Shown: piece after piece, positions 9,973 to 28,138 of the stretch
How the letters are laid out: every line of letters begins with the position of its first letter
How positions within the stretch are numbered: the first letter of the stretch is position 1
NCBI RefSeq assembly: GCF_013041615.1
Contig: NZ_JABEPQ010000005.1
Location: 186,001-250,000 of the forward strand
Direction of reading: 5' to 3'
From: Knoellia koreensis
GTDB lineage: Bacteria > Actinomycetota > Actinomycetes > Actinomycetales > Dermatophilaceae
Length of the DNA: 64,000 bases
Made by a program: the position numbers and the translations under genes
The notes under the pieces: model-generated
What the model was told of the DNA's origin: nothing
Seen by the model: the letters and a program-made list of their open reading frames with translations, nothing else
Database searches by the model: none

Positions 9973-10401
9973 TCAGGACTTCGCCGGTGCCTTCGTCGCG
10001 CTGGGCACGCAGGTGTTCCCCTTCTCCTTGCCCTTGACGAACTTCGCCGCCGCGAGCTCCTTGCTCTGGCCGGGGTCGAGGGTCTCGGTGAAGGTCTTGG
10101 AACCCACGACGGTGCCGCCCTCGGTCTTGGCCACGGCCACCATGACGGTGAAGGTGGTGCGTTCCTTGTCGGGGTTCTTCAGGGTGGCCTTGAACGACCA
10201 CGCCCCGTCGGTGAACTCACACGACACCTTGCTCAGCGCGGCGATCGCGCCGGCCGGCTGACTCGTCCTCGGTGCCGCGGTGACGGTGGAGGGCCCAGTC
10301 GTCACGGTCGGGTCGTCGGTGCGGCCGTCGCCAGAGCACGCGCCGAGCGCGAGCAGGGAGGCGGCGCAGCCTGCGGTCAGGACGGTGGTGCGCAGACGCA
10401 T
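9973..10401 (-). CDS. Small secreted lipoprotein (142 aa)
   Basis: The N-terminus is a lipoprotein signal with lipobox LGAC (lipidated Cys22), followed by a Thr/Ser-rich linker and a compact domain (about residues 55-130, SCEFTDGAWSFKATLKN onward). The domain reads as a small beta-sandwich like FxLYD or DUF4352 domains, with two Cys that could form a disulfide. No enzyme motif is visible. I chose the ATG at 10401 because the signal peptide follows directly; a longer frame upstream has no signal. The gene begins 52 bp after the stop of the giant surface protein on the same strand, so it may be its co-expressed partner at the cell surface (inference). Confidence 0.65.
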   Translation of the reverse strand: MRLRTTVLTAGCAASLLALGACSGDGRTDDPTVTTGPSTVTAAPRTSQPAGAIAALSKVSCEFTDGAWSFKATLKNPDKERTTFTVMVAVAKTEGGTVVGSKTFTETLDPGQSKELAAAKFVKGKEKGNTCVPSATKAPAKS

Positions 10402-10453: not shown

Positions 10454-13400
10454 TCAGGGGCGACGGTCGGGCGCCCGGTGGCGGCCACGGCCGACCACCG
10501 GCGCGAGCCCGCGGCGGGCACCGAGCAGGAGGATGCCGAGGGCGAGCAGGGCCAAGGCGAGGCCGAGCATCACCAGGATGTTGCTGCCCGTGAACGCGAG
10601 CGGCTCGTGCGGGGTCGGGGGCCGGGGCGCCGGAGGCGGCGGGGTCGGCGCGGTGGGGGTCTCGACGGCAGCGGCGTCGTCGATGGCGCCACCACCGCCC
10701 ACCAGCTCGGCCGTGGCGGTGGCGACGTTGCGCAACGCATCACCCGTGGTCTCACTGGCGGTCACCTGGTGCACGCGGGTGAGCTCGGTGCACTCGACGG
10801 TGTCGCCCGGGGCCAGCGGGCCGGCGTCGCACAGGGCGGCGTCGAGCCCGACCATGCGGTCGGTGATACGGATGTCGACGAGGCTGGTGGTGCCGGTGTT
10901 GGTCACCGCAAACTCGTAGCGCACCGACTCGCCGGCGTCGGCGACGCCGTCACCGTCGCTCTCGAGCAGTGTCGCGGTCTTGGTCAGCTGCATGCCGGTG
11001 CGGGTGTCCGTGGGCGTGCTGGTCGAGCTCGTCCCGGACACCGTCTCGCCGCCACCCGCGGGCGTGCCGCTGGCCGTGGCGTTGTTCTGCACCGACCCGG
11101 CGTCGACGTCCGCCTGCGTCACGGTGTAGGCGCCGGCCGTGCAGGTCGCGGAGGCCCCCGGCGCGAGCGCCGTGACGGGGCAGGTGACGTCGCCGAGCTT
11201 CGGGTCGGTGACCCGCAGACCGGAGACGGTGACCGTGCCGGTGTTGGTGACCGTGAACTCGTAGTCCACCGTCTCGCCCACGTCGGCGAGCCCGTCGCCG
11301 TCACCGTCGCGCAGCACGCCGGCCTTGACGAGCTCGAGCGCGGCGACGTGGGTGACCGGGGTCGTCACCGTGTCGGTGGCGTCGACGGGCAGGCCCGCCG
11401 AGTCGGTGGCCGCCACGGTGGCGGTGTTGACGACCTGGCCGGCGTCGACGTCGGCCTGGGTCAGCACGTAGGTCACCGTGCAGGTCGTCCGCGCACCCGG
11501 CGCCAGGGTCGCCGCACCGCACGGTGCGTCCGTGACGCCGAGCTTGGCGTCAGTCAGCCGCACAGCGGTGAGGGTGCCGTTGGAGGTGTTCGTGATGGTG
11601 AACGTGTAGGCGAGGGTGTCGCCGGCATCGGGCCGCCCGGACCCGTTGGCGTCGACGAGGTCGCCGGCCTCCTTGACCAGGGTGACACCGGAGACGCGGT
11701 CGAGCTCGACGGTCTCGTCGTCGGTGGCGGTGACCGGCGTGCCCGTCGTGCCGTCCGGGCGCACTGGGGTGCCGGTGGCGGTGGCGGTGTTGTCGACCGA
11801 CCCTGCGTCGATGTCGCCGACGGTGAGGACGTGGTCGCGGGGTGCCGCACACGTCACCGAGGCGCCGGGCGCGAGCGGGGCGTCGGAGCAGACGAAGTCG
11901 TCCAGGCCCAGCATGGTGTCGCTGACGGTGACCCGCCCTATCGTGGTGGCCCCGGTGTTGGTGACGGCGAAGGTGTAACCGATCCGGTCACCGACGGACG
12001 GTCGGCCATCGCCGTCGACGTCCTGCAGCGACCCGGCGGTCTTGACCAGCGCGATCGAGCTCGTGGCGCCGAGTGGCGTCGTCACCGACGAGGGCTCCGA
12101 CGTGACCGGTGACCCGCCACCGACAGGATGACCGCTCGCGGTGGCCGAGTTGGTGACCGCGCCCGCGTCGGCGTCGTCCTGGGTGAGGACGTATGCCGGG
12201 GCCGTGCACGTCCGCGACGCGCCGGGGGCGAGCGGGCCGTCGCCACACGGCATACCTCTCAGGCCCAGCTTCGCGTCGGTGACGGTGACCGGGTCGAGGG
12301 TCGTCACACCGGTGTTCTCGACCAGGAACGTGTAGGTGATGGTGTCACCCTCGTCGACCCGGCCCGAGCTGTTGGCGTCGACCACGTCACCGGCGGTCTT
12401 GGTGACGGTGAGCGAGCTGGCCGCATCGAGCACGACCGACTCGGTGTCGCTGAACTCCACCCCGGAGCCCGCCGGGTCGACACCGGTGACTGTCGCGCGG
12501 TTGTCCACCCGGCCGCGGTCGATGTCGGGCTGGGTCAGGACGTAGGGCTCGGCGGTGCAGGTCATCGACGCGCCGGGCGCCAGCGACGTCTGCGGGCAGT
12601 CGACGGAGATGCCGGCAGCGGCGAGCAGCGGGTCGCTGACCGCGAGCTGGCGCAACGTGAGGTTGGAGCTGTTCGTCACGGTGAACTCGTAGGTGACGGT
12701 GTCACCGACGTCCTGGCGGCCCGAGTCGTTGGCGTCGACCACCGGACCGGCGGTCTTCTCCAGCACCACGGCGGCGACGTTGTCGAGGTCCGTGGTGGTG
12801 CCGTCGGTGTCCGTGACAGCCGGGCCGGTGGGCGCGCCGCCGGTGACCCTGGCCGTGTTGGTGACGACACCGTCGTCGACGTCGTCCTGGGTGAGGACGT
12901 AGGCCTCGGGAGCCTCGCACGTGGCCGTCTCACCAGGGGCCAACGTCGGCGCGCACACGAACCCGGCCAGCTCGAGCTTGGCGTCGTCGATGGTGACCGG
13001 CGACAACGTCTGGGCGCCGGTGTTCTGCACCACGAAGCTGTAGCGGATCTCGTCACCGGCGTCGGGCCCGTTGCGGTCGAGGTCGACGACGGCCGAGGCG
13101 TTCTTGGTGATGGTGATCGCGTTGACGGGCGTGAAGGTCGACGTCTCCGAACCGCTGCTGTCGACCGGTCCACCGCTCGGCGGTGTGCCGGTGGCGGTGG
13201 CCGTGTTGGTCACAGTGGCGGCGTCGATGTCGGCCTGGGTCAGGGTGTAGGTCGCGGTGCACTCCACCGACTCCCCGGCCGCCAGCGTGGCCGCGCACTG
13301 GATGTCCTCGGCGCCGATCCGCGGGTCGTCGACCGTCACCGGGGCCAGCGTGCGGCTGCCCGTGTTGGTCACCGTGAAGGTGTACGTGATCGTGTCGCCG

Positions 13401-16400
13401 GCGTCGGGACCGTTCCGGTCGCCGTCGACGACCGGTCCGGCCGTCTTCTCCAGTGCGACCGAGTCGGCCGGCTCGATGGTCACGACCTCGGTCGAGTCGT
13501 CGCTGACCGGCTCACCCTGGGTGGTGGTGCCGGCGACCGTCGCGGTGTTGTCGACCCGCAGCGTGTCGATGTCGGCCTGGGTGAGGACATAGGGCGCCGC
13601 GGTGCACGTCGTGCTGGTGCGCGGTGCGAGCGTCGTCGCCTCACAGGTGACGCCGGACAGCTTGGGGTCGGTGACAGCGATGCCCTGAACGGTCAGGTTG
13701 GAGGTGTTCTCCACCGTGAACGTGTAGGTCACCGTGTCGCCCGCGTCGGTGGCGTCGGGCAGTCGGCCCCCGGCCGTGGTCGGCGCAGCGGCAGTCTTGG
13801 TGAGCACCAGAGTGGCGACGTTGTCGAGGTCGGTGGTGACGTCGTCGGTGGCCTCCGGGTCGACGCCCTGCGGGGAGTCGCCGGTCGCCGTCGCGACGTT
13901 GCGCACGAACCCAGCGTCGACGTCGTCCTGTGTGAGCGTGTATGCCGCGGGCGCCGGGCACGTGGCCGTGTCGCCGGGCGCGAGGCTGGCCACGCAGACA
14001 AAGTTGTCGAGGGCCAGCAGCGGGTCGTCGATGGTGACCGGCGCGAGGGTCGTGGCCCCGGTGTTGGTGACGGTGAAGGAGTAGTCGATCTCGTCGCCGG
14101 CGTCGGCGCCGTTGGCGTCGGGGTCGCGCACCGCCGAGTCGTTCTTGGTCAGTGTCAGCGCCGACCGAGGCTCGAAGGTCACGGTCTCGTCGTCGCCCGC
14201 GCTCACCGGGTCGGCGCCCGCGGGCGGCGTGCCCGTGCCGGTGGCGGTGTTGGTCACCGAACCCCGGTCGACGTCGGCCTGGGTGAGCACGTACGGCTCC
14301 GGAGCCGGGCACGTGCGCGACTGGCCGGGTGCGAGCGGGGCGCTGCCACACGGCATACCCGTCAGCTCGAGCAGTGGGTCACTCACGGTGACCGGGTCGA
14401 GTGTGGTCGCACCGGTGTTGGCGACGGTGAACGAGTAGCTGATCGTGTCACCCTCGTCCGGACCGTTGCCGTCGAGGTCGACGAGCGCACCGGCGTTCTT
14501 CACGAACGTCATCGAGCTGACCGGGTCGAGCTCGACGGCCTCGGTGGCGTCCACCGGGATGACGGGGCCCTGCGGCGACGTAGCCGTGAGGGTGGCCGTG
14601 TTGTCGACGCGCCCGCGGTCGATGTCGTCCTGGGTGAGGACGTGCGGCGCGGCCGTGCACGTCATCGTGGCCCGAGCCGCCAGCGTGGTCGACGGGCAGG
14701 TGACGGCGCCCAGCATGGGGTCGGTCACTGCCACCCCGGTGAGGGTCAGGTTGGAGGTGTTGGCGACCGTGAAGGTGTAGGTGACCGTGTCGTCCGCGTC
14801 CTGGCGACCGCTGCCGTTGGAGTCGGCCACCACACCCGCGACCTTGTCGAGGGTCATCGTCGCGAGGTTGTCGAGTGGGGTCCTGGTGGAGGAGGCGTCC
14901 TCGACCGGGTCACCGCCGGCGACCGCTGCGGTCACCGTCGCAGAGTTGGCCACGACACCGGCGTCGACGTCGTCCTGGGTGAGGACGTAGGTGGGCGCCT
15001 CACAGCTGGCGGTGTCGCCGGGGGCGAGAGTGGTGATGCACGGGAAGTCGCCGAGGTCGAGCTTGGCGTCGTCGACGGTGATCGGGCCCAGGGTGCGGGC
15101 ACCGGTGTTGCGCACCGTGAAGGTGAAGGTCATCGTGTCGCCCGCGTCGGCGCCGTTGCCGTCGTTGTCGACGATCGTCGACGCCGACTTCGTGAACTCC
15201 AGGGCAGCGGCCCCGTCGACCGGCGTGGTGATCGTGTCGGTCGCGGCGACCGTGTCGCCTGCCGGAGTCGTGCCCGTCGTGGTTGCCGTGTTGGTCACCG
15301 AGCCGCGGTCGATGTCGGCCTGGTCGAGGGTGAGCGTCGCGGTGCACTCGGCGGTATCGCCGGGAGCCAGCGACGCGGCGCACGCGAAGTCCGTCAGGCC
15401 CAGCTTGTCGTCGTCGATGGTGACGGGCGACAGCGTCTGGGAACCGGTGTTCCTGACCGTGAACGTGTAGGTGATGGTGTCACCGGCGTCGGTCGTCGTC
15501 GGGAGCATGCCACCGTCGACAGTCGGCTGGCCGGCGGTCTTGGTGAGCTCGACGCCGTTGCGCGCCGTGAGCGGCGCCGACACGGTGTCCGTCGCGCCCA
15601 CATCGTCACCCGACGGGTCCTGGGCCGTGGCCGTGGCAAGGTTGTCGACGCGGCCACGGTCGATGTCGGTCTGCGTGAGGACGTACGGCGTAGCCGTGCA
15701 GGTCGTCGTCGCCCGGGCCTCCAGCGTGGTGTCCGCGCAGGTGATGTCGCCCAGCAGCGGGTCGCTGAGGCGCAGCCCGGTGAGGGTGAGGTTGGACTCG
15801 TTGGTGACGGTGAACCGGTAGGTGATCGTGTCACCGGCGTCGGTCACCGTGTCGAGCCTGCCCTGGTCGGCGGTGGGTGCACCCGCCTGCTTGTCGAGGA
15901 CGAGGACCGCGACGTTGTCGACATCGACCGTCGCGCTCGAGGTGGCCGTCGGGTCGGCGCCCACGGGGGCGTCGCCGGTGGCGGTCGCCGTGTTGGTCAC
16001 CGCACCGGAGTCGACGTCGGCCTGGGTGAGGACGTATGCCGCGGGGCCGGCACAGATCGCGGAGTCGCCCGGCGCGAGCGTGGCGACGCACTCGAAGGTG
16101 CCGCCGAGGCGGCTGTCGCTGATAGTGACCGGGGCCAAGGTGGTGGCGCCGGTGTTGGTGACGGTGAACGTGTACGTGATCGTGTCGCCGGCGTCCGGGC
16201 CGTTGCCGTCGTTGTCGACGACGGCCGAGGCGCTCTTGGACAGGGTCACCGCGTTGGTGGCCGGCAGGTCGACGCGGGCGACGTCCTCGTAGTCGACGAC
16301 GGTGCCGTCCGGACCCGCCCCCTCGACGGAGGCAGTGTTGTCCACGCCACCGGCGTCGATGTCGCCCTGGGTGAGGACGTAGCGGAAGCTGCACGTCGCG

Positions 16401-19400
16401 CTTGCTCCGGGCGCGAGGCGGCTCTGGCCGTCGCAGGCGACGTCAGCCACACCGAGCTTGGCGTCGGTGATCAGCACCGGGTCGAGCGTGACGGTGCCGG
16501 TGTTCTCCACGGTGATCGTGTAGGTGACGGTGTCGCCCGCGTCGGTGACGGTCGAGAGCCGGCCACCGGTCAGGGTCGGCACCGAGGCCGTCTTCTCGAT
16601 GGTGACGGCGGGCCGGCCCGGGACGGCCGTGGTGACTGTGTCGGTCGCGCTGACCTGTGGGTCGTCGGGGTTCGGCGGGTTGGCGGTCGCGGTGGCGGTG
16701 TTGGTGATGCTGCCGCGGTCGACCTCGGCCTGGGTGATGTCGTGCGGCGCGGTGCAGGTGACCGACTCGCCCGGGGACAGGACGGCCTCGCACTGCAGGT
16801 TGGTCAGCTTCAGGGTCGGGTCGCTCACCGTGACGATCGACAGGGTGGTGTTGCCGGTGTTGGTCACGGTGAAGCTGTAGGTGATCCGGTCACCGGCGTC
16901 CGGGCCGTTGCCGTCGCGGTCGTCGATGGCCGAGGCGGTCTTGTCGATGGTGAGGGCACTGGCCGGGTCGATGACCACGAGCGCCGAGTCGGTGTCGGTG
17001 ACGGCGCCACCGGCCGGGTCGGTGCCGCGCACGGTGGCCGTGTTGCTCACGCTGCCAGCGTCGATGTCGCGCTGGGTCAGGACGTGGGGAGCTGCCGTGC
17101 AGGTCGTCGACTCGCCGGGAGCGAGGCTCTGCTGGGTGCAGGTCACGGCGCCGAGCAGCGGGTCGTTCACGGCGATGTCGTCGATGGTGAGGTTGGAGCT
17201 GTTCGTCACGACGAACGAGTAGGTGATCGTGTCGCCGGCGTCAGTGACGTCGCCGAGCCGGCCACCCGCCGTCGTCGGCGCGCCCGCGGTCTTGGTGAGC
17301 GTGAGCACGGCGACGTTGTCGACGTCCACGGTTTCGTCGTCGGTCGCGGTGGCGTCGGGCCCGTTCGGCGCGCCACCGGACACGGTCGCCGTGTTGTCGA
17401 CCGCTCCGGCGTCGACGTCGGCCTGGGTCAGCACGTACGGGCTGGGGGCCGGGCAGGTGACGCTTGCACCGGGCGCCAGGGACGCGACACAGAGGAAGTC
17501 GTCGAGCCCGAGCTTGGTGTCGTCGATCGTCACCGGAGCCAGGACGGTGGAGCCGGTGTTGGTGACCGTGAAGGTGTAGACGATCGTGTCGCCGGCGTCG
17601 GCGCCGTTGCCGTCGAGGTCGCGCACCGCCGAACCCGACTTGGTCAGGGTGAGCGAGTTGCTGGCCGGGATGTCGACGCGCGCGCTGTCACTGGCGGTGA
17701 CGGCCGCATCACTCGGCGGGGTACCGGTCACGCTGGCGATGTTGGTCACGCCGCCGGCGTCGATGTCCGGCTGGGCGAGGGTGTAGGTGAAGGTGCAGGT
17801 GGCCGACGCCCCGGGCGCGAGCGTGCTCGCGCCCGAACAGGGCACACCAGCCAGGCCGAGCTTCTCGTCGGTGATCTCGACGTCCCGCAGCGTGACGGTG
17901 CCCGTGTTGGTGACGGTGAGGGTGTAGGTGATGGTGTCGCCGGCGTCGGTCGTCGTGCCGAGACGTCCACCGGACACGGTCGGCTCTCCGGCCACCTTGT
18001 CGATGGCGATGCCGGGGCTGGTGGGGAGCGTCGAGGTCGCCGTCGCATCGTCGGTGACCGGCGTGGCGCCGCCGGGGGGAGTGGCCGTCGCGGTCGCGGT
18101 GTTGCGCACGACCCCGGCGTCGAGGTCGGCCTGGGTCAGCGTGTAGGTCGCGGTGCACGTGGCCGTGTCACCGGGCGCAAGGGTCGGTGCGCACGCCAGC
18201 CCGGTGACACCGAGCCGCGCGTCGGCGACGGTGACGGTGCTCAGGGTCTGGTTGCCGGTGTTAGTCACCGCGAAGGCGTAGGTGATCGAGTCGCCGGCAT
18301 CGGTGCGCTGCGGGTCGCTTCCCGCCGCCACGGTGGGCTCGCCGGCAGTCTTGCGCAGGTCGACGGAGTTGCTGCCGTCGATGGTCACGGTCGCGGTGTC
18401 GGCGTCGCTGACACCGGTGCCGTCGGGCTGGGTCGCACTGGCCGTGGCGGTGTTGGCGACGCGACCGGCGTCGATCTCTGCCTGGGTCAGCACGTGCGGA
18501 GCTGCCGTGCAGGTGGTGGAGGCGCGTGGCGCGAGCGTCGCCGCGTCGCAGGTCACGTCGCCCAGCATGGGGTCGGCGACCTCGACCCCGGTCAGGGTGA
18601 GGTTGGAGTCGTTGGTGACGGTGAAGCTGTAGGTCACTGTGTCACCCGCGTCGGTGACCGTCGGCAGGTCCCCACCAGCGACCGTCGGGGTACCCGCTGT
18701 CTTCACCAGGCGCAGCGCCGCGACGTTGGTGAGCGCGGTCGTGGTCGCCGCGTCGTCAGTGGGGTCGGTGCCGGTCGGCGCGTCACCGGTTGCGGTGGCG
18801 GCGTTGGTCACCGCACCCGCGTCGACGTCGGCCTGGGTCAGCACGTAGGGCGCAGGGGCCTCACACGTGAGCGTGGCACCCGGTGCGAGCGACGGGGCGC
18901 AGCTGAAGTCGTCGAGACCGAGCATCGGGTCGTCGATGGTCACTGGCGCCAACGTCGTGGAGCCGTCGTTCGTGACCGTGAACGTGTAGTCGATCGTGTC
19001 GCCGGCGTCCGGGCCGTTGCCGTCGAGGTCACGCACACCCGAGGAGTTCTTGGTGAAGCTGATGGCGTTGGTCGGGGCCAGCGGGACGGTGACGTCGTCG
19101 GAGGCCGTGACCGAGGTCCCGGTGGGCGTCGCGCCGACAGCACTCGCCGCGTTGGTCACCGAGCCCGCATCGATCTCGGCCTGGGTGACGGTGTGGGTGA
19201 CCGTGCACGTGGTGCTCTCGCCGGGGGCGAGTGAGTCGTCGCCGCCACAGACGCGACCCGACCAGCCGACCAGCTCGTCGGTCACCCGCACCGGGCTGAG
19301 CGTGACGTTGCCGGTGTTGGTGACGGTGATCGTGAACTCGACCGTGTCACCGGCATCCGTGACAGTGTCGAGTCGGCCGGCCGCCACCGTCGGAGCACCA

Positions 19401-22400
19401 GCGGTCTTCGACACCGCAACGGCCGGCGACGAACCGACGGTGACGACGGCGTCGTCCGTTGCGGTCACGGGCGTGCCACCACCCGGCGGCACGGCCGAGA
19501 CGGTCGCGACGTTGCGGAAGCCGCCGGCGTCCACGTCGGCCTGGGTCAGGACGTAGGCAGGTGAGGTGCAGGAGCGCGAGGCGCCCGGCGCCAACGGGCC
19601 GGCACCACACGGCATACCCGTCACGTTGATGCGCTCATCGGTGACCGTGACCGTGTCGACCGTCGTGGCACCGGTGTTGGTGACCGTGAAGGTGAAGGTG
19701 ACCGTGTCGCCTGCATCCGGGCCGTTGCCGTCGACGTCGGCGACCGGGCCGGCCGCCTTGTCCAGCGACAGCGTGCTCGTCGGGGCGAGGACCCGGGTCT
19801 CCACGGCGCTGTCGGTGACCGGACCGGTCGGGCTCGTGCCATCGACGCTCGCGGTGTTGGTGACGCGTCCGGTGTCGATGTCGTCCTGGGTCAGGGAGTA
19901 GGGCGCCGAGGTGCAGGTCATCGAGGCGTTCGGCGCGAGGCTGGTCGACGGGCAGGTGATCGCGACGCCGGCCGAGGCGAGCATCGGGTCGCTCACCGCC
20001 ACACCGGTGAGCCGGGTGTTGGCGGTGTTGGTGACCGTGAACGAGTAGGTGATCGTGTCACCGGCGTCGGTGACGCCCGGCAGGCGACCGCCAGCCGTCG
20101 TCGGCGTGCCGGACGTCTTGTCGATCTCGATGCTCGTGACCCGGTCGATGGTGAGGGTCTCGCTGTCGGTGTCGGCGGGGTTCGCACCGGCGGAGGCGGT
20201 GGCCGAGGCGGTCGCGGTGTTCTCCACCGTGCCGGCGTCGACGTCGTCCTGGGTGAGCGCGTAGACCTTGGTGGCCTGGCACGTCGTGGAGGCGCCCGGG
20301 GCAAGGGGGCCGGGCGTGCAGACGAAGCCGGAGAGGCCCAGCTTGGCGTCGTCGATGGTGACGTCGCTCAGGGTCGAGGCGCCGGTGTTCTGGACGGTGA
20401 AGGTGTACTCCACCGTGTCGCCCTCGCTCGGCCTGCCGTCCTCGTCGACGTCGACGATGCTGCCGGCGGTCTTGGTGAGGACGATCGAGTTTCGCGGGGT
20501 GACGGTGGTCGTGGTGCCGTCGCTGCCGGTCGCCGTGCCTGTGGGGGTGTCGACCGTGACGGTGGCGGTGTTGGTGGCCGCGCCCGCGTCGACGTCGGCC
20601 TGGGTGAGCGTGTAGGTCGCAGTGCACGTGGTCGAGGCACCGGGCGCGAGGCTGGTCGTGCCACAGGCGAAGCCATTGAGGCCCAGCTTGGCGTCGGCGA
20701 TGCGCGGGTTCGTCACCGTGGTTGCACCGGTGTCGGTCACCGTGAACGTGTAGGCGATCGTGTCGCCGGCGTCGGGTCCGTTGCCGTCACCGTCGGAGAT
20801 CGCGCCGGCCGACTTGGTGAGCCGGACGGAGCTGGCCGGGGTGAGCTGCACCGTCGCAGGGTCGGTTGCGGTGACCGTGCCGCCCTGCGGGTTGCGCGCG
20901 GTTGCGGTCGCGGTGTTGTCCACCCGGCCGCGGTCGATGTCGGCCTGCGTGAGGGTGTAGGCGCCGGAGGTGCAGGTCGTCGATGCCCCCGGCGCGAGAG
21001 TCGTTGTGGGACAAGCGATCCCGACACCCGCGCCCGCCAGCAGCGGGTCGGTGACCGTCAGACCGGTGAGGGTGACGTTCGAGGTGTTGGTGACGCGGAA
21101 CGTGTAGCTCACGGTGTCACCCGCGTCGAGGCGCCCGGAGCCGTTGGTGTCGGCGACCGGTCCGGCATCCTTGGCGAGGGTGAGGCTGGCCAGGTTGGTG
21201 ATCGGGACGTCATTGGCGTCGGTCGCCGTGGGGTCGGTGCCCGTGGCCGCGTTGCCCTTTGCCGTGACGTCGTTGTGCACCACGCCGTTGTCCACGTCGC
21301 CCTGCGTCAGGACGTATGCCGCGGGGGCAGCGCAGGTGGTCGACTCACCCGGCGCGAGCGAGGCGACGCACTGGAAGTCGGTGAGGCCGAGCTTGGTGTC
21401 GGTGATCGTCACCGGGGCCAGCGTGGTCGTGCCGGTGTTGGTGACGGTGAACGTGTAGCTGATGGTGTCGCCCTGGTCGGCGCCGTTGCCGTCGTTGTCG
21501 ACGATGCCGGCGTCGCGCTTGTCGACTGTGAGCGAGCCGGCTTGGGGCACGGTGACCGTCGTGCTCGCGGTGTCGGTGACCGGGCCGGTCGGTGAGGTGC
21601 CATTGACGGTGGCGGTGTTGTCGACCCGTCCGGCGTCGATGTCGCCCTGCGTGAGGGAGTGGGTGGCCGTGCAGGAGACCGTCGCCCCGGGCGCGATCGA
21701 GCCGTCGGCGCAGAAGTAGTCGGTGAGGCCGAGCGTCGGGTCCGTGATCGTGAGCGTGGACAGCGACGTGCCGCCAGTGTTCGTGGCCGTGAAGGTGTAG
21801 GTGACGGTGTCGCCCGCGTCGGTGCGGTTGGGGTCGGTGCCGCCCGCCGTGGTCGGCGTGCCACCGGTCTTGACCAGGTCGACCGAGCTCGCGGGGGCGA
21901 CCGGGGTGGAGACGGTCGCCGAGTCGGTGACATCGGCACCGCGCGGGTCCTGGCCGGTGACGGTGGCGGTGTTGTCGACGCGCAGCGCGTCGACGTCGCC
22001 CTGGGTCAACGTGTAGGTGCGGGTGCACGTGGTGGTCTGCCCCGGCTCGAGCGTGGTGGTGCCGCAGGTCAGGTCGGTGACGTTCAGCTTCGGGTCGTCG
22101 ATGGTGACGCCGGTGAGCGTGACGTTGGAGGTGTTGCGCACCGTGAAGGTGTAGGTGACGGTGTCACCGGCGTCGGTGGACCCGGGGAGACGCCCGCCGG
22201 ATGTGGTCGGGGCGCCGGCCGTCTTGGTGAGGTCGATGCCGGCGACCTGGGTGACCGGTCGGGTCTCGGAGTCGCTGGCGCGCGGGCTCGTGCCGGACGC
22301 GGCCACCGCCGTCGCGGTCGCGGTGTTGTCGACCTTGCCGGCGTTGATGTCGGCCTGGGTCAGCCGGTAGGTGACAGGCGCGGCGCAGGTCGCGGTGGCG

Positions 22401-25400
22401 CCGGGGGCCAGCGGCCCCGCCGTGCACAGCCACCCCGACAGGCCCAGCTTGCTGTCGGTGACCGTGACGTTGCTGAGCGTCGCCGACCCGGTGTTGGTGA
22501 CCGTGAAGGTGTAGTCGATCGTGTCGCCGGGGCTGGGGCTGCCGCTGCTGTCGACGTCCTTCACCGCGCCACCGGTCTTGGTGAGGCTCATCGAGTTGAC
22601 CGGCGTCAGGGGCGAGACCTCGCGGTCGCTGCCGGTGACGGTGCCACCGGTGCTCGGCGTGGCGGTGGCTGTCGCGGTGTTGACGACCTGGCCGGCGTCG
22701 ACGTCGGCCTGGGTGATCGTGTAGGCCGGGCTCGTGCAGGTGACGCTTGCGCCCGGAGCGAGCGGCCCTGCGCTGCACAGGAACCCGTTCAGGCCGAGCT
22801 TGGCGTCGGTCACCCGGATGTTGTTCAGGCTGGCCGCGCCGGTGTTGGTGACGGTGAACGAGTAGGAGACGGTGTCGCCCGCGTCGGGGCCGTTGCCGTC
22901 GACGTCGACCACGTCGCGCGACGCCTTGTCGAAGGTCAGCGACGACCGCGGGGTGACGGTGACCGTCTCGGCGTCCTGGGCCGTGACACTGCCACCGAGG
23001 GCAGGGACGGCGGTGGTCGTCGCCGTGTTGTCGACCCGGCCGGCGTCCACGTCGGCCTGGGTGAGGACGTAAGGGGTGGGCGCCTGACAGGTGACGGTGG
23101 CGCCCGGGGCGAGCGGGCCCGCGCTGCACAGGTAACCCGACAGGTTGAGCTTGGGGTCGCTCACCGTGATCGAGGACAGCGACTGCGCGCCGGTGTTGGT
23201 GACGGCGAAGGTGTAGACGATCGTGTCGCCGGCGTCCGGGCCGTTGCCGTCGAGGTCGTTGACCGCCCCACCGGTCTTGACGAGGGAAGCCGACGCGGCC
23301 GGGGTGAAGGTGACCGAGGCGGTGGAGCTGTCGCTGACGGTGTTGTTGTTCGGGTCGGTGCCCCGGACGCTGGCCGTGTTGTCGACGCGTCCGGCGTCGA
23401 TGTCGGCCTGGGTCAGGCGGTATGCCGGGCTGGTGCACGTGATCGTCGTGAGGGGGTCGACCGTGCCGGTCCCGCACTGGTAGTTCGTGAGGCCGAGCTT
23501 GGTGTCGTTGATGACGACACCGGTCAGCGGGACGTTGGAGGTGTTGCGCACCGTGAAGGTGTAGGTGATCGTGTCCCCAGCGTCGACCCGACCGGAGCCG
23601 TTGGCGTCGACCACCTGGCCGGGCGTCTTGGTCAGGTCGATCGAGGCCAGGTTGTCGATGCTCGTGCTGGTGGAGTCGGTGTCGGTGGGGACTGTGCCGT
23701 AGGGCGGCGTGGCCGTCACCGACGCGGTGTTGGTGACGGCGCCGGCGTTCACGTCGGCCTGGGTGATGATGTAGGCGACACCGGTGCGACAGGTGGCGGT
23801 TGCCCCGGGTGCGAGCGGGCCGGCGGTGCAGAGTAGGTCGTCCTGGTTCAGCTTGGCGTCGTCGATGAGGACGTTGGTCAGGGTCGTCGTCCCGGTGTTG
23901 CGGACGCTGAACGAGTACTCGATCTCATCGCCCGCATCGGCCACCCCGTTGCCGTTGGCGTCCATGACGCTGGAGGCGGTCTTGGTGAGCTCGATGCCGT
24001 TGGTGCCGGTCGTGGTCAGCGTCGCGGTGCCGGTGGCGCTCACCGGGGTGGCGCCGCCGGGTGGGGTGGCGACGACACTCGCGGTGTTGGTGATGGAGCC
24101 GGCGTTGATGTCGCCCTGGGTCAACGTGTACGTCGCGGTGCAGGTGCGCGAGGCGCCGGGCGCGAGGCTGCCGGTTCCACAGGCGTAGCCGGACAGGCCG
24201 AGGCGGGCGTCGTTGACGACGACGTTGCCGAGCGTCGTGTTGCCGGTGTTGGTGACCTGGAAGGTGTAGACGACCGTGTCGCCCGCGTCGCGCCCGTTGC
24301 CGTCGAGGTCGTTGACGGTCCCCACCGACTTGGCCAGGGTCATCGACGCGGTCTGGGTCGGGGTGCTGGTCGACGACGTCGCCGTGGGCTTCGGCAGGTT
24401 GTTCGGCGGCGTGCCCGTCACCGTGGCCGTGTTGGTCACCGTGCCGGCCGCCATGTCAGAGGCCGTGATCGTGTATGCCGCGGACGGCGCGCACACGGTC
24501 GTCTCACCGGGCGACAGGACGGGGTCGGCACAGGTGATGGTGATCCCGGCGCCGGCCAGCTTGGGGTCGGAGACCGTGGTGGCGGTCAGGTCGACCGTGC
24601 CGGTGTTGCGGACGAGGAACGAGTAGGTGATCTTGTCACCGGCGTCCGTGAGGCCGTTGCCGTTGACGTCCTGGACGGAGGCGACCGACTTGGTCAGCGA
24701 CATCGAGGTGGTCGGGGCGGCCGGTGGCGCGACACAGGCGGCGTTGTCGGTGGTGGCCCCCTTCTCCTGTCCCGCGGGGAGCGCGACGGAGTTGTACAGG
24801 CCGGTGCCGGGACCGCCGCAGGCGGTCGCGGCCGTCGTGGTCGTCGAGTGCGCGGTGACGGTCACGGCATACGTCTGCGTCGTGGAGCCCCCGATCGCGG
24901 TGCCCGCGGGAGCGAGCACCCAGGGTCCCGCCGTCGAGCTCGAGCCGCTGACCGGTCCGCTCCAGATCACGCCGTCGATGGCGATGGTGCTGGCGAACTG
25001 CGGGGTGTCGGTGAGCGCGCCGTAGGTCGTCGGGGTCTGGCCGCTGTTGGTGACGGTGACCGTGTAGGTCACGGTGAAGCGGCCCGTGGTGGGGTCGACG
25101 GTACTGGTCGAGCCCTGCGTCTTGGTGACGTTGAGGCTGGCCGGGGTGGCGACCGTGACGGTCGCGGTGGCCTGGTTGGACGACGCGGTGCCGGCGCTCG
25201 AGGTCGCCGACGCCGTCGCCGTGTTGGTCACCTTGCCTGCGGTCTGGTCTGCGGCCGTGACGGTGTAGGTCTGGGCGGGCGTACAGGTGACGGACGCACC
25301 GGGAGCCAGCGGCCCGGCGGCGCAGGTGACGGTGCCACCCAGCTTGGGGTCGTTGACCGTGATGGAGCTGAGGGTGGTGTTGCCGGTGTTGGTGGCCGTG

Positions 25401-28036
25401 AAGGAGTACTGGACCGTGTCGCCCGGGTCGGTGACGCCGTTGCCGTTGACGTCATTGACCTTGGCGACCGACTTCGTCAGGCCGATGACGGCCGTGCGGG
25501 CGAGCGAGGTGCTCGTCGAGGACGGGTCCTGCACCGCGGTGCCACGCGCCGAGGTGGCCTTGGCCGTGGCGGTGTTGTTGACCGCGCCCGCGTCGACGTC
25601 CGGCTGCGTGACGGTGTAGGTGACCGACGTGCAGGTCATCGTGGCCCCGGGGGCCAGCGAGGTCTGCGGGCAGGTGATCGTGCCGAGCATCGGGTCGGTC
25701 ACGGTGATCGCGTTCAGCGTCGTGTTGCCGGTGTTGCGGACCGTGAAGCCGAAGGTGATGGTGTCGCCCTGGTCGGGCCCGTTGCCGTCGACGTCGGTGA
25801 GCCCGAGCGCCGTCTTGGTGAGGTCGATAGCGGCGGCGTCAACCGCGGGGACCGTCGCGGTGCTGGGGGCGGAGGTGACGGCAGTGCCGTTCGCGGGGGT
25901 GCCGGTGGCCGTGGCCGTGTTCGTCACCGCCCCGGCGTCGAGGTCGGACTGGGTGACCGTGTAGGTCGCGGTGCAGACGAGCTTGACGCCCGGTGCGAGG
26001 GTCGCCGGCTGGGCCGGGGTGCAGCTGAGGGCCGACAGGCCGGCCTTGGGGTCGGTGATCCGCACGCCGGTCATGGTGCGGTTCGAGCTGTTGGTCGCCG
26101 TGAACGTGTAGGTGATCGACTCACCGACCTGCGAGACCGACGACTTGTTCGCCGCCTTGGTGAGGTCGAGGGTGCCGGTGAACGGCAGCGGCGTGGTGTC
26201 GGTGTCGGTGCCGGTGGCGGTGGCACCCAGCGGGGTCTTGCCGCTGGCGCTGGCCGTGTTGTCCACGCGCCCGGCGTCGAGGTCGGGCTGGGTGAGGGTG
26301 TAGCTCGCGGTGCACGTCGTGCTGGCGCCGGGGGCGAGGGTCGTCGTCGGGCAGGTGACGGTGCCGACCTTCGGGTCGGTGACGCTCACGCCGGTGAGCG
26401 TCACCGTGCCGGTGTTGGTGACCTTGAAGGTGTAGGGCACCTGGTCGCCCGCGTCGAGGCCGTTGCCGTCGGGGTCGGTGATCGTGCCGTGGGACTTGTC
26501 GAGGACCAGCGTCCCGGTCGGGGCCAGGTTGGTGGTGGCCGTCGAGGTGGCGCTGACGTCGGCGACGGCACCGGCGGGTCGCCCGCTGGCGGTTGCGGTG
26601 TTGTTGACCGCTCCGGCGTCCATGTCGGGCTGGGTGATCGTGTAGGTCTTGGTGCACGTCATCGACGCACCCGAGGCAAGGCTGGTGCTGGGACAGCTCA
26701 CCGGGCCGACCTTGGGGTCGCTCACGACGACGTTGGACAGGGCGGTGCTGCCGGTGTTGCGGACGACGAACGTGTAGGCGACCGTGTCCCCTGCGTCGAG
26801 CCGGCCCGAACCGTTGGCGTCGACCGGCGTCCCGGCGGACTTGGCCAGGGTGATGCCCTCGGTCTGCACGGTGTTGGTCGTGGTCTGCGACGTCGACGTG
26901 CGGGTGACGTTGTCACCGGCCCAGCTGTAGGTGGCGTTCGCCGTGTTGGCGATGGACGCGCCGGCGGCTGCGCTCGCGTTGACCTTGACCTTGAACGTGA
27001 TGGTGCTGGACGACCCCGCCGCGATCGTGCCGCCTGTGGTCGCCGTGGCTCCGGTGCCAACTCTCGCGGTGACGGTGTTGTTGCCGAAGTCGGCCTGGTC
27101 GTCCCCTGCCCCGTCGGTCTTGGCAGCCCCGTCGACGGTGATCGATCCCGGGACGTAGGTCGTGCCCGGCGGGATGGCGTCGGTGATGGCAGAGGTGAGG
27201 GCGGCATCACCACCGTTGTTGGTGGCCTTGACGGTGTAGGTGAGGGTGTCGCCCGGCACGGTGTTGCCGCCGTTGTCGTCGACGACCTGCTTGTCGAGGA
27301 TGATGCAGGGAGCCGTGCCGAAGGTGATGTTGTCGAGGAAGTTGCCGAGGGTCGGTCCACCACTGCCGGTGATTGCCTCGAACTGGAACCGCGTCGTCGT
27401 CTGGCCGGCAGGCACCGTGTAGGTGCCGGTGTAGTTGACCCACGCCGCATCGGACGTGGTGAGCTGACGCTGCTCGACCGGTGCGCCAGTGGACCCGATC
27501 TTCACCGACATGGTGTTGGTCTGGTCGCCCGAGACGGTGTTGGTGCTGCGCGCGCGGTGCCACAGCGACCACCGCATCGTCGTGCCCGGCACGGTCGGGA
27601 GGTCCTGGTAGAGCGCCGAGGCCTGGGTGGCGTTGAGCTCAGCCCACTGGCTGCCGCTCTGGGGGGAGATCGACAGCCCGCCGTTGGACGTCGTGATGGT
27701 GCCGCGCCAGTACTCGATGAGGTTGTCGGTGGCCGTGGTGTTCCAGAACAGGCCCGGGGTTCCCTCTAGGACATTGGTGCCTGCGCCGTTGGGGACCACC
27801 GGGGTCTCGAAGTTGCCGTTCTGCAGCGCACTGACCGTGCCGCAGCTCGTCGGGTTCTGATCGGCAGCGGCGGGGGTGGGGTTCTGGATGACCTGCACGA
27901 CGAAGGTCAGCATCGACAGGACGAGCGCGACCGAGACCAGGCTCGCGACACGACGAAGCGCGCGCACGCCGCGCGCGGAATCCCATGCGAGCAGATGCAC
28001 CGCTCGCCCTACTGTCTGATCCACAGACATGCTCAC
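10454..28036 (-). CDS. Giant LAxTG-anchored surface protein with 47 DUF11-like repeats
   Basis: One uninterrupted frame of 5,860 codons encodes a secreted surface protein. Residues 30-50 are a hydrophobic signal, with likely cleavage after PTPAAA. Residues of about 65-240 form a beta-sandwich resembling carbohydrate-binding modules (it opens with ALQNGNFETPVVPNG). Then come 47 domains of about 117 residues related to DUF11/DUF7507, a Pro-rich spacer, LAFTG (10586-10600), a hydrophobic helix and an Arg-rich tail. That end matches the LAxTG signal of class E sortases, so covalent attachment to the wall is expected. Most domains share GDTxxYTFxVxNTG, two Cys flanking LAPG, LTQxDxDAG and NTAT. 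I favour the GTG at 28036, six bases after GGAGG; an ATG at 28030 is also possible. Likely roles are adhesion or a stiff surface stalk (inference). No sortase gene is in the window. Confidence 0.88.
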   Translation of the reverse strand: MSMSVDQTVGRAVHLLAWDSARGVRALRRVASLVSVALVLSMLTFVVQVIQNPTPAAADQNPTSCGTVSALQNGNFETPVVPNGAGTNVLEGTPGLFWNTTATDNLIEYWRGTITTSNGGLSISPQSGSQWAELNATQASALYQDLPTVPGTTMRWSLWHRARSTNTVSGDQTNTMSVKIGSTGAPVEQRQLTTSDAAWVNYTGTYTVPAGQTTTRFQFEAITGSGGPTLGNFLDNITFGTAPCIILDKQVVDDNGGNTVPGDTLTYTVKATNNGGDAALTSAITDAIPPGTTYVPGSITVDGAAKTDGAGDDQADFGNNTVTARVGTGATATTGGTIAAGSSSTITFKVKVNASAAAGASIANTANATYSWAGDNVTRTSTSQTTTNTVQTEGITLAKSAGTPVDANGSGRLDAGDTVAYTFVVRNTGSTALSNVVVSDPKVGPVSCPSTSLASGASMTCTKTYTITQPDMDAGAVNNTATASGRPAGAVADVSATSTATTNLAPTGTLVLDKSHGTITDPDGNGLDAGDQVPYTFKVTNTGTVTLTGVSVTDPKVGTVTCPTTTLAPGASTTCTASYTLTQPDLDAGRVDNTASASGKTPLGATATGTDTDTTPLPFTGTLDLTKAANKSSVSQVGESITYTFTATNSSNRTMTGVRITDPKAGLSALSCTPAQPATLAPGVKLVCTATYTVTQSDLDAGAVTNTATATGTPANGTAVTSAPSTATVPAVDAAAIDLTKTALGLTDVDGNGPDQGDTITFGFTVRNTGNTTLNAITVTDPMLGTITCPQTSLAPGATMTCTSVTYTVTQPDVDAGAVNNTATAKATSARGTAVQDPSSTSTSLARTAVIGLTKSVAKVNDVNGNGVTDPGDTVQYSFTATNTGNTTLSSITVNDPKLGGTVTCAAGPLAPGASVTCTPAQTYTVTAADQTAGKVTNTATASATSSAGTASSNQATATVTVATPASLNVTKTQGSTSTVDPTTGRFTVTYTVTVTNSGQTPTTYGALTDTPQFASTIAIDGVIWSGPVSGSSSTAGPWVLAPAGTAIGGSTTQTYAVTVTAHSTTTTAATACGGPGTGLYNSVALPAGQEKGATTDNAACVAPPAAPTTSMSLTKSVASVQDVNGNGLTDAGDKITYSFLVRNTGTVDLTATTVSDPKLAGAGITITCADPVLSPGETTVCAPSAAYTITASDMAAGTVTNTATVTGTPPNNLPKPTATSSTSTPTQTASMTLAKSVGTVNDLDGNGRDAGDTVVYTFQVTNTGNTTLGNVVVNDARLGLSGYACGTGSLAPGASRTCTATYTLTQGDINAGSITNTASVVATPPGGATPVSATGTATLTTTGTNGIELTKTASSVMDANGNGVADAGDEIEYSFSVRNTGTTTLTNVLIDDAKLNQDDLLCTAGPLAPGATATCRTGVAYIITQADVNAGAVTNTASVTATPPYGTVPTDTDSTSTSIDNLASIDLTKTPGQVVDANGSGRVDAGDTITYTFTVRNTSNVPLTGVVINDTKLGLTNYQCGTGTVDPLTTITCTSPAYRLTQADIDAGRVDNTASVRGTDPNNNTVSDSSTASVTFTPAASASLVKTGGAVNDLDGNGPDAGDTIVYTFAVTNTGAQSLSSITVSDPKLNLSGYLCSAGPLAPGATVTCQAPTPYVLTQADVDAGRVDNTATTTAVPALGGSVTAQDAETVTVTPRSSLTFDKASRDVVDVDGNGPDAGDTVSYSFTVTNTGAASLNNIRVTDAKLGLNGFLCSAGPLAPGASVTCTSPAYTITQADVDAGQVVNTATATATPSTGGTVTGSDREVSPLTPVNSMSLTKTGGAVKDVDSSGSPSPGDTIDYTFTVTNTGSATLSNVTVTDSKLGLSGWLCTAGPLAPGATATCAAPVTYRLTQADINAGKVDNTATATAVAASGTSPRASDSETRPVTQVAGIDLTKTAGAPTTSGGRLPGSTDAGDTVTYTFTVRNTSNVTLTGVTIDDPKLNVTDLTCGTTTLEPGQTTTCTRTYTLTQGDVDALRVDNTATVTGQDPRGADVTDSATVSTPVAPASSVDLVKTGGTPTTAGGTDPNRTDAGDTVTYTFTATNTGGTSLSTLTITDPTLGLTDYFCADGSIAPGATVSCTATHSLTQGDIDAGRVDNTATVNGTSPTGPVTDTASTTVTVPQAGSLTVDKRDAGIVDNDGNGADQGDTISYTFTVTNTGTTTLAPVTITDTKLGLTDFQCVASLAPGESTTCAAPAAYVLTQGDVDNGVVHNDVTAKGNAATGTDPTATDANDVPITNLASLTLAKDAGPVADTNGSGRLDAGDTVSYTFRVTNTSNVTLTGLTVTDPLLAGAGVGIACPTTTLAPGASTTCTSGAYTLTQADIDRGRVDNTATATARNPQGGTVTATDPATVQLTPASSVRLTKSAGAISDGDGNGPDAGDTIAYTFTVTDTGATTVTNPRIADAKLGLNGFACGTTSLAPGASTTCTATYTLTQADVDAGAATNTATVTVDTPTGTATGSDGTTTTVTPRNSIVLTKTAGSIVDVDEDGRPSEGDTVEYTFTVQNTGASTLSDVTIDDAKLGLSGFVCTPGPLAPGASTTCQATKVYALTQDDVDAGTVENTATASATASAGANPADTDSETLTIDRVTSIEIDKTSGTPTTAGGRLPGVTDAGDTITYSFTVTNTANTRLTGVAVSDPMLASAGVAITCPSTSLAPNASMTCTSAPYSLTQDDIDTGRVTNTASVDGTSPTGPVTDSAVETRVLAPTSTLSLDKAAGPVADVDGNGPDAGDTVTFTFTVTNTGATTVDTVTVTDERINVTGMPCGAGPLAPGASRSCTSPAYVLTQADVDAGGFRNVATVSAVPPGGGTPVTATDDAVVTVGSSPAVAVSKTAGAPTVAAGRLDTVTDAGDTVEFTITVTNTGNVTLSPVRVTDELVGWSGRVCGGDDSLAPGESTTCTVTHTVTQAEIDAGSVTNAASAVGATPTGTSVTASDDVTVPLAPTNAISFTKNSSGVRDLDGNGPDAGDTIDYTFTVTNDGSTTLAPVTIDDPMLGLDDFSCAPSLAPGATLTCEAPAPYVLTQADVDAGAVTNAATATGDAPTGTDPTDDAATTTALTNVAALRLVKTAGTPTVAGGDLPTVTDAGDTVTYSFTVTNDSNLTLTGVEVADPMLGDVTCDAATLAPRASTTCTAAPHVLTQAEIDAGRVANTATASATQPDGTGVSDADTATVTIDGSNSVDLRKTAGEPTVAAGSDPQRTDAGDSITYAFAVTNTGNQTLSTVTVADARLGVTGLACAPTLAPGDTATCTATYTLTQADLDAGVVRNTATATATPPGGATPVTDDATATSTLPTSPGIAIDKVAGEPTVSGGRLGTTTDAGDTITYTLTVTNTGTVTLRDVEITDEKLGLAGVPCSGASTLAPGASATCTFTYTLAQPDIDAGGVTNIASVTGTPPSDAAVTASDSARVDIPASNSLTLTKSGSAVRDLDGNGADAGDTIVYTFTVTNTGSTVLAPVTIDDTKLGLDDFLCVASLAPGASVTCPAPSPYVLTQADVDAGAVDNTATVSGGAPNGPDATATDDETVDVDNVAVLTLTKTAGAPTTAGGRLGDVTDAGDTITYSFVVTNSSNLTIDDIAVNDPLLGAVTCTQQSLAPGESTTCTAAPHVLTQRDIDAGSVSNTATVRGTDPAGGAVTDTDSALVVIDPASALTIDKTASAIDDRDGNGPDAGDRITYSFTVTNTGNTTLSIVTVSDPTLKLTNLQCEAVLSPGESVTCTAPHDITQAEVDRGSITNTATATANPPNPDDPQVSATDTVTTAVPGRPAVTIEKTASVPTLTGGRLSTVTDAGDTVTYTITVENTGTVTLDPVLITDAKLGVADVACDGQSRLAPGASATCSFRYVLTQGDIDAGGVDNTASVEGAGPDGTVVDYEDVARVDLPATNAVTLSKSASAVVDNDGNGPDAGDTITYTFTVTNTGATTLAPVTISDSRLGGTFECVATLAPGDSAICAGPAAYVLTQADVDSGAVTNTATATGDAPVGADPTATSSATVDVDNVAVLVLDKQAGAPTADQGRLDTVTDAGDTITYRFTVTNESNLTLTGLRLSDPLLGDITCADTTLEARATTTCTATPYVLTQTDIDRGRVDNLATATAQDPSGDDVGATDTVSAPLTARNGVELTKTAGQPTVDGGMLPTTTDAGDTITYTFTVRNTGSQTLSPVTIDDDKLGLTDFACAASLAPGDTAECTATLTLDQADIDRGSVTNTATTTGTTPAGDTVAATDTITTPVDGAAALEFTKSASTIVDNDGNGADAGDTMTFTFTVRNTGARTLGPITVDDAKLDLGDFPCITTLAPGDTASCEAPTYVLTQDDVDAGVVANSATVTAAVAGGDPVEDASSTRTPLDNLATMTLDKVAGVVADSNGSGRQDADDTVTYTFTVANTSNLTLTGVAVTDPMLGAVTCPSTTLAARATMTCTAAPHVLTQDDIDRGRVDNTATLTATSPQGPVIPVDATEAVELDPVSSMTFVKNAGALVDLDGNGPDEGDTISYSFTVANTGATTLDPVTVSDPLLELTGMPCGSAPLAPGQSRTCPAPEPYVLTQADVDRGSVTNTATGTGTPPAGADPVSAGDDETVTFEPRSALTLTKNDSAVRDPDANGADAGDEIDYSFTVTNTGATTLAPVTIDDPLLALDNFVCVASLAPGDTATCPAPAAYTLTQDDVDAGFVRNVATATGDSPQGVDPEATDDVTTDLDNVATLVLTKTAAAPTTAGGRLPDATDAGDTVTYTFTVENTSNLTVQGIAVTDPKLSGVTCEATTLAPRTSTTCTAAPYVLTQADIDTLRVDNTATVAGTTTQGEPVSDDSTEVVTIEPADSVALEKTAGPVVDGDRNGPDAGDTITYTFTVTNTGSRTLAPVTVDDPRIGAEDIQCAATLAAGESVECTATYTLTQADIDAATVTNTATATGTPPSGGPVDSSGSETSTFTPVNAITITKNASAVVDLDRNGPDAGDEIRYSFVVQNTGAQTLSPVTIDDAKLELAGFVCAPTLAPGETATCEAPEAYVLTQDDVDDGVVTNTARVTGGAPTGPAVTDTDGTTTDLDNVAAVVLEKTAGPVVDANDSGRQDVGDTVTYEFTVTNSSNLTLRQLAVSDPLLAAAGISVDCPQTSLAPGASMTCTAEPYVLTQPDIDRGRVDNRATVTGVDPAGSGVEFSDTESVVLDAASSLTVTKTAGDVVDANSSGRVDEGDTITYTFLVENTGVTTLDPVTVTDAKLGLRGMPCGDGPLAPGASRTCTAPAYVLTQDDADAGAVTNSATASGHPVGGGSPVTSEPSSVTTPLGATSSIALVKTAGSLQDVDGDGRPSVGDRIGYTFAVTNTGATTIGRVTVSDTMLGLDDFVCSDAPLAPGASVTCAAPRDHVLTVGDIDAGSVDNTATATGTPVRPDGTTGTPVTATDDETVELDRVSGVTLVKEAGDLVDANGSGRPDAGDTLAYTFTITNTSNGTLTAVRLTDAKLGVTDAPCGAATLAPGARTTCTVTYVLTQADVDAGQVVNTATVAATDSAGLPVDATDTVTTPVTHVAALELVKAGVLRDGDGDGLADVGETVDYEFTVTNTGTVTVSGLRVTDPKLGDVTCPVTALAPGASATCTAGAYTVTQADVDAGSVQNNATASGTPAGGGETVSGTSSTSTPTDTRTGMQLTKTATLLESDGDGVADAGESVRYEFAVTNTGTTSLVDIRITDRMVGLDAALCDAGPLAPGDTVECTELTRVHQVTASETTGDALRNVATATAELVGGGGAIDDAAAVETPTAPTPPPPAPRPPTPHEPLAFTGSNILVMLGLALALLALGILLLGARRGLAPVVGRGRHRAPDRRP
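10586..10600 (-). other. LAFTG sorting signal of the giant protein
   Basis: Codons for Leu-Ala-Phe-Thr-Gly, preceded by a Pro-rich stretch and followed by a hydrophobic segment (about 20 residues, VMLGLALALLALGILLL) and a basic tail. This is the three-part arrangement of a sortase substrate. The Ala in position two is the class E variant common in high-GC actinomycetes, rather than LPxTG. Confidence 0.8.
10655..27310 (-). repeat. Array of 47 DUF11/DUF7507-like domain repeats
   Basis: Reading the protein domain by domain I count 47 units of about 350 bp. Unit 1 (a canonical DUF11) and unit 7 are divergent. At one loop the units fall into two classes. One is acidic, of the form DxDGNGPDAGD, as in calcium-binding loops. 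The other, in 12 units, is of the form GGRLxxVTDAGD. Most units keep a Cys pair about 12-15 residues apart around LAPG. A subset (units 4, 11, 15, 18, 21, 25, 29, 33, 36, 39, 42, 45) has N(T/S/D/E)SN or NTAN in place of NTG, marking larger duplicated blocks. DNA blocks encoding DAGDT and LTQxDxDAG are the most conserved between units. Confidence 0.85.
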
Positions 28037-28138
28037 CAACGTCCTCCCTGCTGGAAGCGCATGCCTGCGCGTCGCGGCATCCACGGTTCGCAGGGGGCGT
28101 CCAAGAACGTACGGACCCTAGCGTCCCGCACCACCGGT

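Follow-up and report, generated by a model that had tools for sequence, protein, structure and literature searches.

A giant stalk gene lies on the minus strand of the window, by which we mean the whole 64,000-nucleotide stretch of Knoellia koreensis DNA that was analysed. It is flanked by a gene for an ECF-type transporter upstream and by genes for a small lipoprotein and an elongation factor G (EF-G)-like protein downstream (Table 1). The open reading frame at 10454-28084 is unbroken over 5,876 open codons, and a GTG at 28036, preceded by GGAGG as judged by eye, gives a protein of 5,860 residues; residue numbers are counted from the codon at 28084. The first-pass annotation had described a single 17.6 kb frame with a signal peptide, and both descriptions stand: the frame is intact from the GTG, and an export signal recognised by eye ends near residue 74.

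Table 1. Genes and protein segments of the stalk locus, by position in the window.
Feature	Position	Strand	Basis or remark
Elongation factor G-like gene	7831..9924	(-)	Downstream neighbour; adjoins ECF gene in 8 sister genomes
Small lipoprotein gene	9973..10401	(-)	142 aa; lipobox LGAC by eye; starts 52 bp past stalk stop codon
Giant stalk gene	10454..28036	(-)	5,860 aa from the GTG; reading frame continues open to 28084
Pro-rich spacer, LAFTG (10586-10600), membrane span, Arg-rich tail	10457..10642	(-)	Sequence reading
DUF7507 repeats R06-R45	10643..24706	(-)	Pfam and own profile; up to residue 5814
Second DUF11-type domain, breaking the DUF7507 array	24707..25138	(-)	Residues ~983-1126; own profile
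DUF7507 repeats R01-R05	25139..26857	(-)	Pfam and own profile
First DUF11-type isopeptide domain	26858..27301	(-)	Residues ~262-409; TIGR04226, 52.4 bits (cut-off 30)
Head, CBM4/DUF642-like jelly roll	27302..27862	(-)	Residues ~75-261; Pfam rows, model, structure search
Export signal	27863..28036	(-)	Arg-containing n-region and hydrophobic segment; by eye, no predictor
ECF-type transporter gene	28240..30507	(-)	Upstream neighbour; two ABC ATPase stretches and CbiQ domain

Over the frame, GC at third positions is 0.93 and exact DNA repeats extend to 41 bp at most; the contig that contains it (C11) is 296 kb long. With exact repeats this short, misassembly is unlikely, as is a frame open by chance, and a check that the first-pass annotation had itself called for thus leaves the gene standing. 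Repetitive giant genes are error-prone, and among the relatives the array of genome G185 is spread over three frames and the matches of G064 over several contigs, so it has to be asked whether the frame is an artefact of assembly or expansion, or a decaying gene without function. We regard this as the least probable of the readings considered here, given the lack of any exact repeat above 41 bp, the GC3 that stays high throughout, the five residues that never vary across the 45 repeats (see below) and the collinearity of one segment with a relative from another genus.

Stalk domains and predicted cross-links

The stalk comprises 47 beta-sandwich domains, 45 of the DUF7507 family (Pfam PF24346) and two of DUF11 type, which bears out the 47 Ig-like domains of the first-pass annotation. 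The count comes from a profile built on the protein's own repeats; it returned 48 rows, three of which scored low (1, 2 and 8) and were reassigned to the two DUF11-type domains, leaving 45 repeats. A genome-wide scan likewise placed 45 DUF7507 matches above the cut-off of 27 bits in the stalk frame, and the Pfam model scored 970 bits over the first 2,028 residues and 1,051.6 bits over the last 1,848 (cut-off 27). Searching PDB sequences with the repeat profile gave no match up to E = 10, and with the first DUF11-type domain a single weak match, to chitinase A1 (E 0.037). Structure prediction, which had been suggested at first pass for a few domains, produced a confident AlphaFold2 model of two repeats (pLDDT 96.5, and about 95 around the inter-repeat junction). 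Its structural neighbours are generic Ig-type tandem domains (integrin, transglutaminase, RbmA), and the solved DUF11 entry 9IFR is absent among the best 50 matches listed for either of two such searches, an absence that carries no weight.

A 2025 survey, the one paper that literature searches found on DUF7507 and on intramolecular isopeptide bonds in DUF11, describes both as isopeptide-bond domains of adhesin stalks, under the names CLIPPER_2 and CLIPPER, and places the predicted DUF7507 triad at Lys72, Asp112 and Asn152, with 40 residues from Lys to Asp and 40 from Asp to Asn (PMC12617251, Table 1). All 45 repeats of our stalk carry this Lys-Asp-Asn triad. Lys and Asp lie 40-43 residues apart in 44 of them, R03 being the exception (35), and Asp and Asn lie 39-45 apart. 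Both cysteines are invariant as well, so that the residues for two types of cross-link, isopeptide and disulfide, are completely conserved in the DUF7507 repeats. From the invariant triad we infer that the stalk domains form isopeptide bonds. We also drew 310 further repeats from 17 frames in 14 genomes, one frame being that of this genome's other DUF7507 protein: the Cys pair is present in 310/310, Asp in 301/310 and Asn in 303/310, and the triad Lys in 258 of the 265 repeats with an aligned residue, 45 having a gap there. Only repeats with a score over 60 bits and a span of over 90 residues were kept, and the score filter favours conserved ones.

The stalk shares with the CLIPPER and CLIPPER_2 proteins of that survey its domain families, the triad, the tandem arrangement, a head and a sorting signal. 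It differs in carrying 47 domains in one chain; the survey drew on AlphaFold DB models of up to 1,280 residues, and proteins of this size therefore fall outside it. Disulfides are given there for 34.9% of CLIPPER_2 domains, whereas here the Cys pair is found in 45/45 repeats, with the disulfide pairing predicted (PMC12617251).

The genome has a VKOR gene, and one disulfide per DUF7507 repeat may be formed by a VKOR-linked oxidative folding pathway. A further recurring feature is a D-x-[DN]-x-[NDS]-G loop, which we take to be of the calcium-binding type, in 31 of the 45 repeats; 12 have a Pro-Thr loop and two have neither pattern. The acidic DxDxNG-type loops may bind calcium and so stiffen many of the domains. 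Separately, net charge per 500 residues drops from -7 in the stretch with the head to -54 over residues 4,501-5,000 and is less negative at the anchor end.

Head, sorting signal and the adhesin reading

The head had been called carbohydrate-binding-like at first pass, and as a fold this holds. The predicted model, at a pLDDT of 78, has a CBM4-type jelly roll that aligns with a CBM4-2 structure over 152 residues (VIA Z 16.8, rmsd 2.3, 15% identity), and Foldseek matched the model to several carbohydrate-binding modules as well as to cyclases. A jelly roll is not proof of sugar binding, since the structural neighbours include cyclases, proteases and insecticidal proteins. By sequence the head stays below the Pfam cut-offs (DUF642, 21.7 of 27; CBM_4_9, 18.9 of 25.9), and a PDB sequence search returned weak rows only (E 0.41, 0.54 and 0.2). 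The head thus shares its fold with CBM4-2 modules and differs from them in its low identity, its sub-cut-off CBM_4_9 score and a glycan ligand that is putative.

Among 186 family genomes, a search with the head matched this genome alone. In the named genome collection, relatives were found at nine loci by a method that detects close relatives only. The alignment of the head with these nine contains 25 invariant residues, including four Trp, one His and one Arg, a pattern that fits either a conserved binding face or a conserved fold. The closest relative, with a head 49% identical to ours, belongs to a protein of 1,687 codons from a Pseudonocardiales MAG, ordered as head, DUF11, DUF7507, more DUF11-like domains and LAHTG (the stalk domains were assigned by eye).

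These data bear on whether the stalk might serve as a spacer or coat, a brush that repels phages, predators or neighbours and whose head is vestigial or structural. Such a role would suit a head present in one of 186 family genomes, the unrelated N-terminus on the related stalk of G184 and repeats that tend to become more acidic towards the wall, but it sits poorly with 25 head residues, four Trp, one His and one Arg among them, kept in ours and all nine relatives, and with the recurrence of the head-plus-stalk order in the Pseudonocardiales MAG. We consider it unlikely.

At the other end of the protein, the LAFTG motif, hydrophobic span and basic tail form the kind of LAXTG signal found in class E sortase substrates. 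The NCBIfam LAVTG-anchor model scored 16.9 bits on the stalk and did not reach its cut-off of 27. The genome encodes a class E sortase (NF033747, 275.6 bits, cut-off 160). The first-pass reading of a class E type sorting signal is thereby strengthened, and the sortase search it had recommended is answered; the class E sortase would be the enzyme that attaches the stalk to the wall. At 13 candidate loci of this genome, inspection turned up eight distinct LAxTG tails, in further frames, and one LPLTG tail. Known class E substrates resemble the stalk in having a LAXTG signal together with a class E sortase; the characterised examples given in the available parts of PMC5148588 are chaplins, not giant stalks.

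Two sortase genes were found in the genome, one of class E and one of class C, and neither adjoins the stalk gene. The class C gene (locus L002, G000:C9) adjoins a gene for a SpaH/EbpB-type LPLTG pilin. Its presence beside such a pilin is what would commend a reading of the stalk as a pilus subunit that the class C enzyme links into polymers; we think this very improbable, because that sortase lies on another contig, C9, with its own LPLTG pilin, whereas the stalk, on C11, ends in LAFTG and has no sortase gene next to it.

We place the giant stalk in a known class, the fibrillar adhesins, whose architecture it has: an export signal (by eye), an adhesive-type distal domain, a long stalk and an anchor signal. 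Our preferred reading, to which we give a probability of roughly 0.7, is that the protein is a fibrillar adhesin in the form of a locked rod with a carbohydrate-binding-type head, anchored by sortase E. The N-terminal signal would export the protein, and each stalk domain would fold outside the membrane and form a Lys-Asn isopeptide bond aided by the conserved Asp. The class E sortase would then cleave at LAFTG and link the C-terminus to the wall. The outcome would be a rod, 47 domains long and locked by chemical bonds, that carries the head far from the cell, where it may grip a glycan on a surface or on another cell. At an assumed 4 nm per domain the stalk could, as the first-pass annotation has it, reach well over 100 nm. 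The sub-cut-off head scores, the pLDDT of 78 and the absence of the gene at this site in eight sister species count against the adhesin reading. Huge DUF11-containing proteins are a recognised group, and our stalk has in common with these bacterial surface proteins a length above 5,000 residues and its envelope class; the available parts of that account give neither the isopeptide and disulfide reading nor the gene neighbourhood presented here (PMC11573180).

A recurring neighbourhood and the history of the array

The small lipoprotein reached no Pfam or NCBIfam cut-off: Pfam rows were far below it or not significant, and NCBIfam rows were weak (best E 0.003). Similar lipoproteins are encoded 3' of the stalk gene in G184, G185, G004, G063, G065 and G039. 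Aligned with ours, they show 21-59% identity, several pairs among the seven being only weakly similar by BLAST. Two Cys are invariant in the soluble part of all seven aligned members. A lipoprotein with hardly any similarity is present at L051. Downstream of the stalk genes of G087, G003, G041, G048, G009 and G023, and of the second DUF7507 gene of this genome, no lipoprotein was recognised. A spotting pattern flagged two of 14 places and six more were found by eye or similarity, so that little can be concluded from the six places where none was seen. A profile search at E 0.001 found no lipoprotein genome-wide in G003 or G009 and no second copy in our genome (G000).

The seven lipoproteins, ours included, prove nothing alone, because they were picked for their adjoining stalks. 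We searched with them through 186 family and 396 order genomes and inspected 35 further loci; the remaining matches of the family search were mostly weak and partial. At ten of the 35, in five GTDB families (f1, f6, f10, f14 and f19), the lipoprotein lies beside a DUF7507 stalk. It is just downstream of a DUF7507-type frame at L094, L096, L111 and L116, all four with a LAxTG tail, and downstream of such frames with LPxTG or LAxTG tails at L129, L130, L131, L134 and L135, where the repeats match our own profile at E 7e-50 or better; at L095 (G087) it is just upstream of the stalk. At L101 it follows an LPKTG-tailed frame without DUF7507-type repeats. At 17 of the 35 loci the lipoprotein follows an ECF transporter without a stalk, and in the lipoprotein tree (midpoint-rooted) these ECF-linked members cluster apart from ours. 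Neither stalk nor ECF gene was seen at seven (L100, L104, where just 128 bases precede the match, L126, L127, L128, L132 and L133), and longer stretches around L098, L099, L100 and L112 contain no stalk.

The order ECF-stalk-lipoprotein occurs in four genomes of three genera, ours, G184, G185 and G063. The ECF gene upstream of the stalk is 58% identical to ours in G184 (gap 195 bp) and G185 (about 240 bp or more) and 43% in G063 (235 bp); a weak 23% match lies upstream of the stalk in G087, and none was found in the stretches examined for G065, G039 and G004. The titles and parts of abstracts returned by a literature search describe no such pair of adjoining lipoprotein and DUF11/LPXTG genes in Actinobacteria; on this, and on the sub-cut-off Pfam and NCBIfam rows, the recurring neighbourhood and the lipoprotein family are apparently undescribed. 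One possible interpretation is that the ECF transporter, stalk and lipoprotein form one surface-display locus, with the lipoprotein as a membrane-side partner that may receive the chain, fold it or hand it to the sortase, and with heads swapped on related stalks. We hold this tentatively, as less probable than not; it gains somewhat from the DUF7507-type repeats that our own profile finds in five of the six other anchored proteins whose genes adjoin that of the lipoprotein.

Within the genus, the ECF gene was found in 11 of 11 genomes and the EF-G-like gene in nine at the thresholds used, G006 and G007 having no match at E 1e-100. The two genes adjoin in all eight sisters that have both, their aligned ends lying 48-138 bp apart compared with 18,318 bp in our genome, and the stalk and lipoprotein genes are absent from this site in those eight species; sisters G004 and G008 have a DUF7507 stalk with lipoprotein at another place. 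This gene order indicates that the site has seen gain or loss of the stalk. We considered a simple insertion and dropped it: the same order in G184, G185 and G063, together with the 17 stalkless ECF-lipoprotein loci, makes gain and loss indistinguishable.

DUF7507 matches (E 0.001) occur in 49 of the 186 family genomes, and the frames among the matches listed reach 8,199 codons in G063, 7,045 in G065 and 6,089 in G184. The length of our stalk is impressive and at the large end, but not unique. It is the larger of two DUF7507 proteins found in its genome; the other (L047, G000:C10; 775 codons) has two repeats and LAHTG. In L047 the profile alignment places no triad Lys in either repeat, and by eye a Lys can be seen in the first strand of the second.

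Repeats of the giant stalk share 46% identity on average and 70% at most. The more alike repeats i and j are, the more alike i+1 and j+1 tend to be (r = 0.27, reached by 0 of 2,000 shuffles), a pattern that suggests duplication in blocks of several domains. In G004, of the same genus, 12 repeats have a mean identity of 81%, as in a young array. G184, whose N-terminus is unrelated to this head, has a stalk stretch including the second DUF11-type domain that is collinear with ours over 611 residues at 58% identity. We compared repeat order with eight arrays, using 500 shuffles for each. The order agrees with ours beyond all shuffles in G184 and G185 (0/500 each) and marginally in G004 (25/500) and G087 (37/500); it does not agree in G063 (104/500), G065 (249/500), G039 (258/500) or G041 (159/500). 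The homologous giant array of G185 (L043) lies in three frames on one contig, through sequencing error or decay. In G064, DUF7507 matches of identical score on contigs C1, C3, C7, C9, C10 and C11, seen among 184 first-look candidates, suggest recent copies that broke the assembly.

The isopeptide identity of the domains, their Cys pairs and calcium-type loops, the recurring neighbourhood and the longer relatives all go beyond the first-pass annotation. The stalk is a naturally occurring case in which to test how far a cell can extend one covalently locked chain, and why every DUF7507 repeat keeps both the isopeptide triad and the Cys pair. In the recurring lipoprotein, giant wall proteins have a concrete candidate helper.
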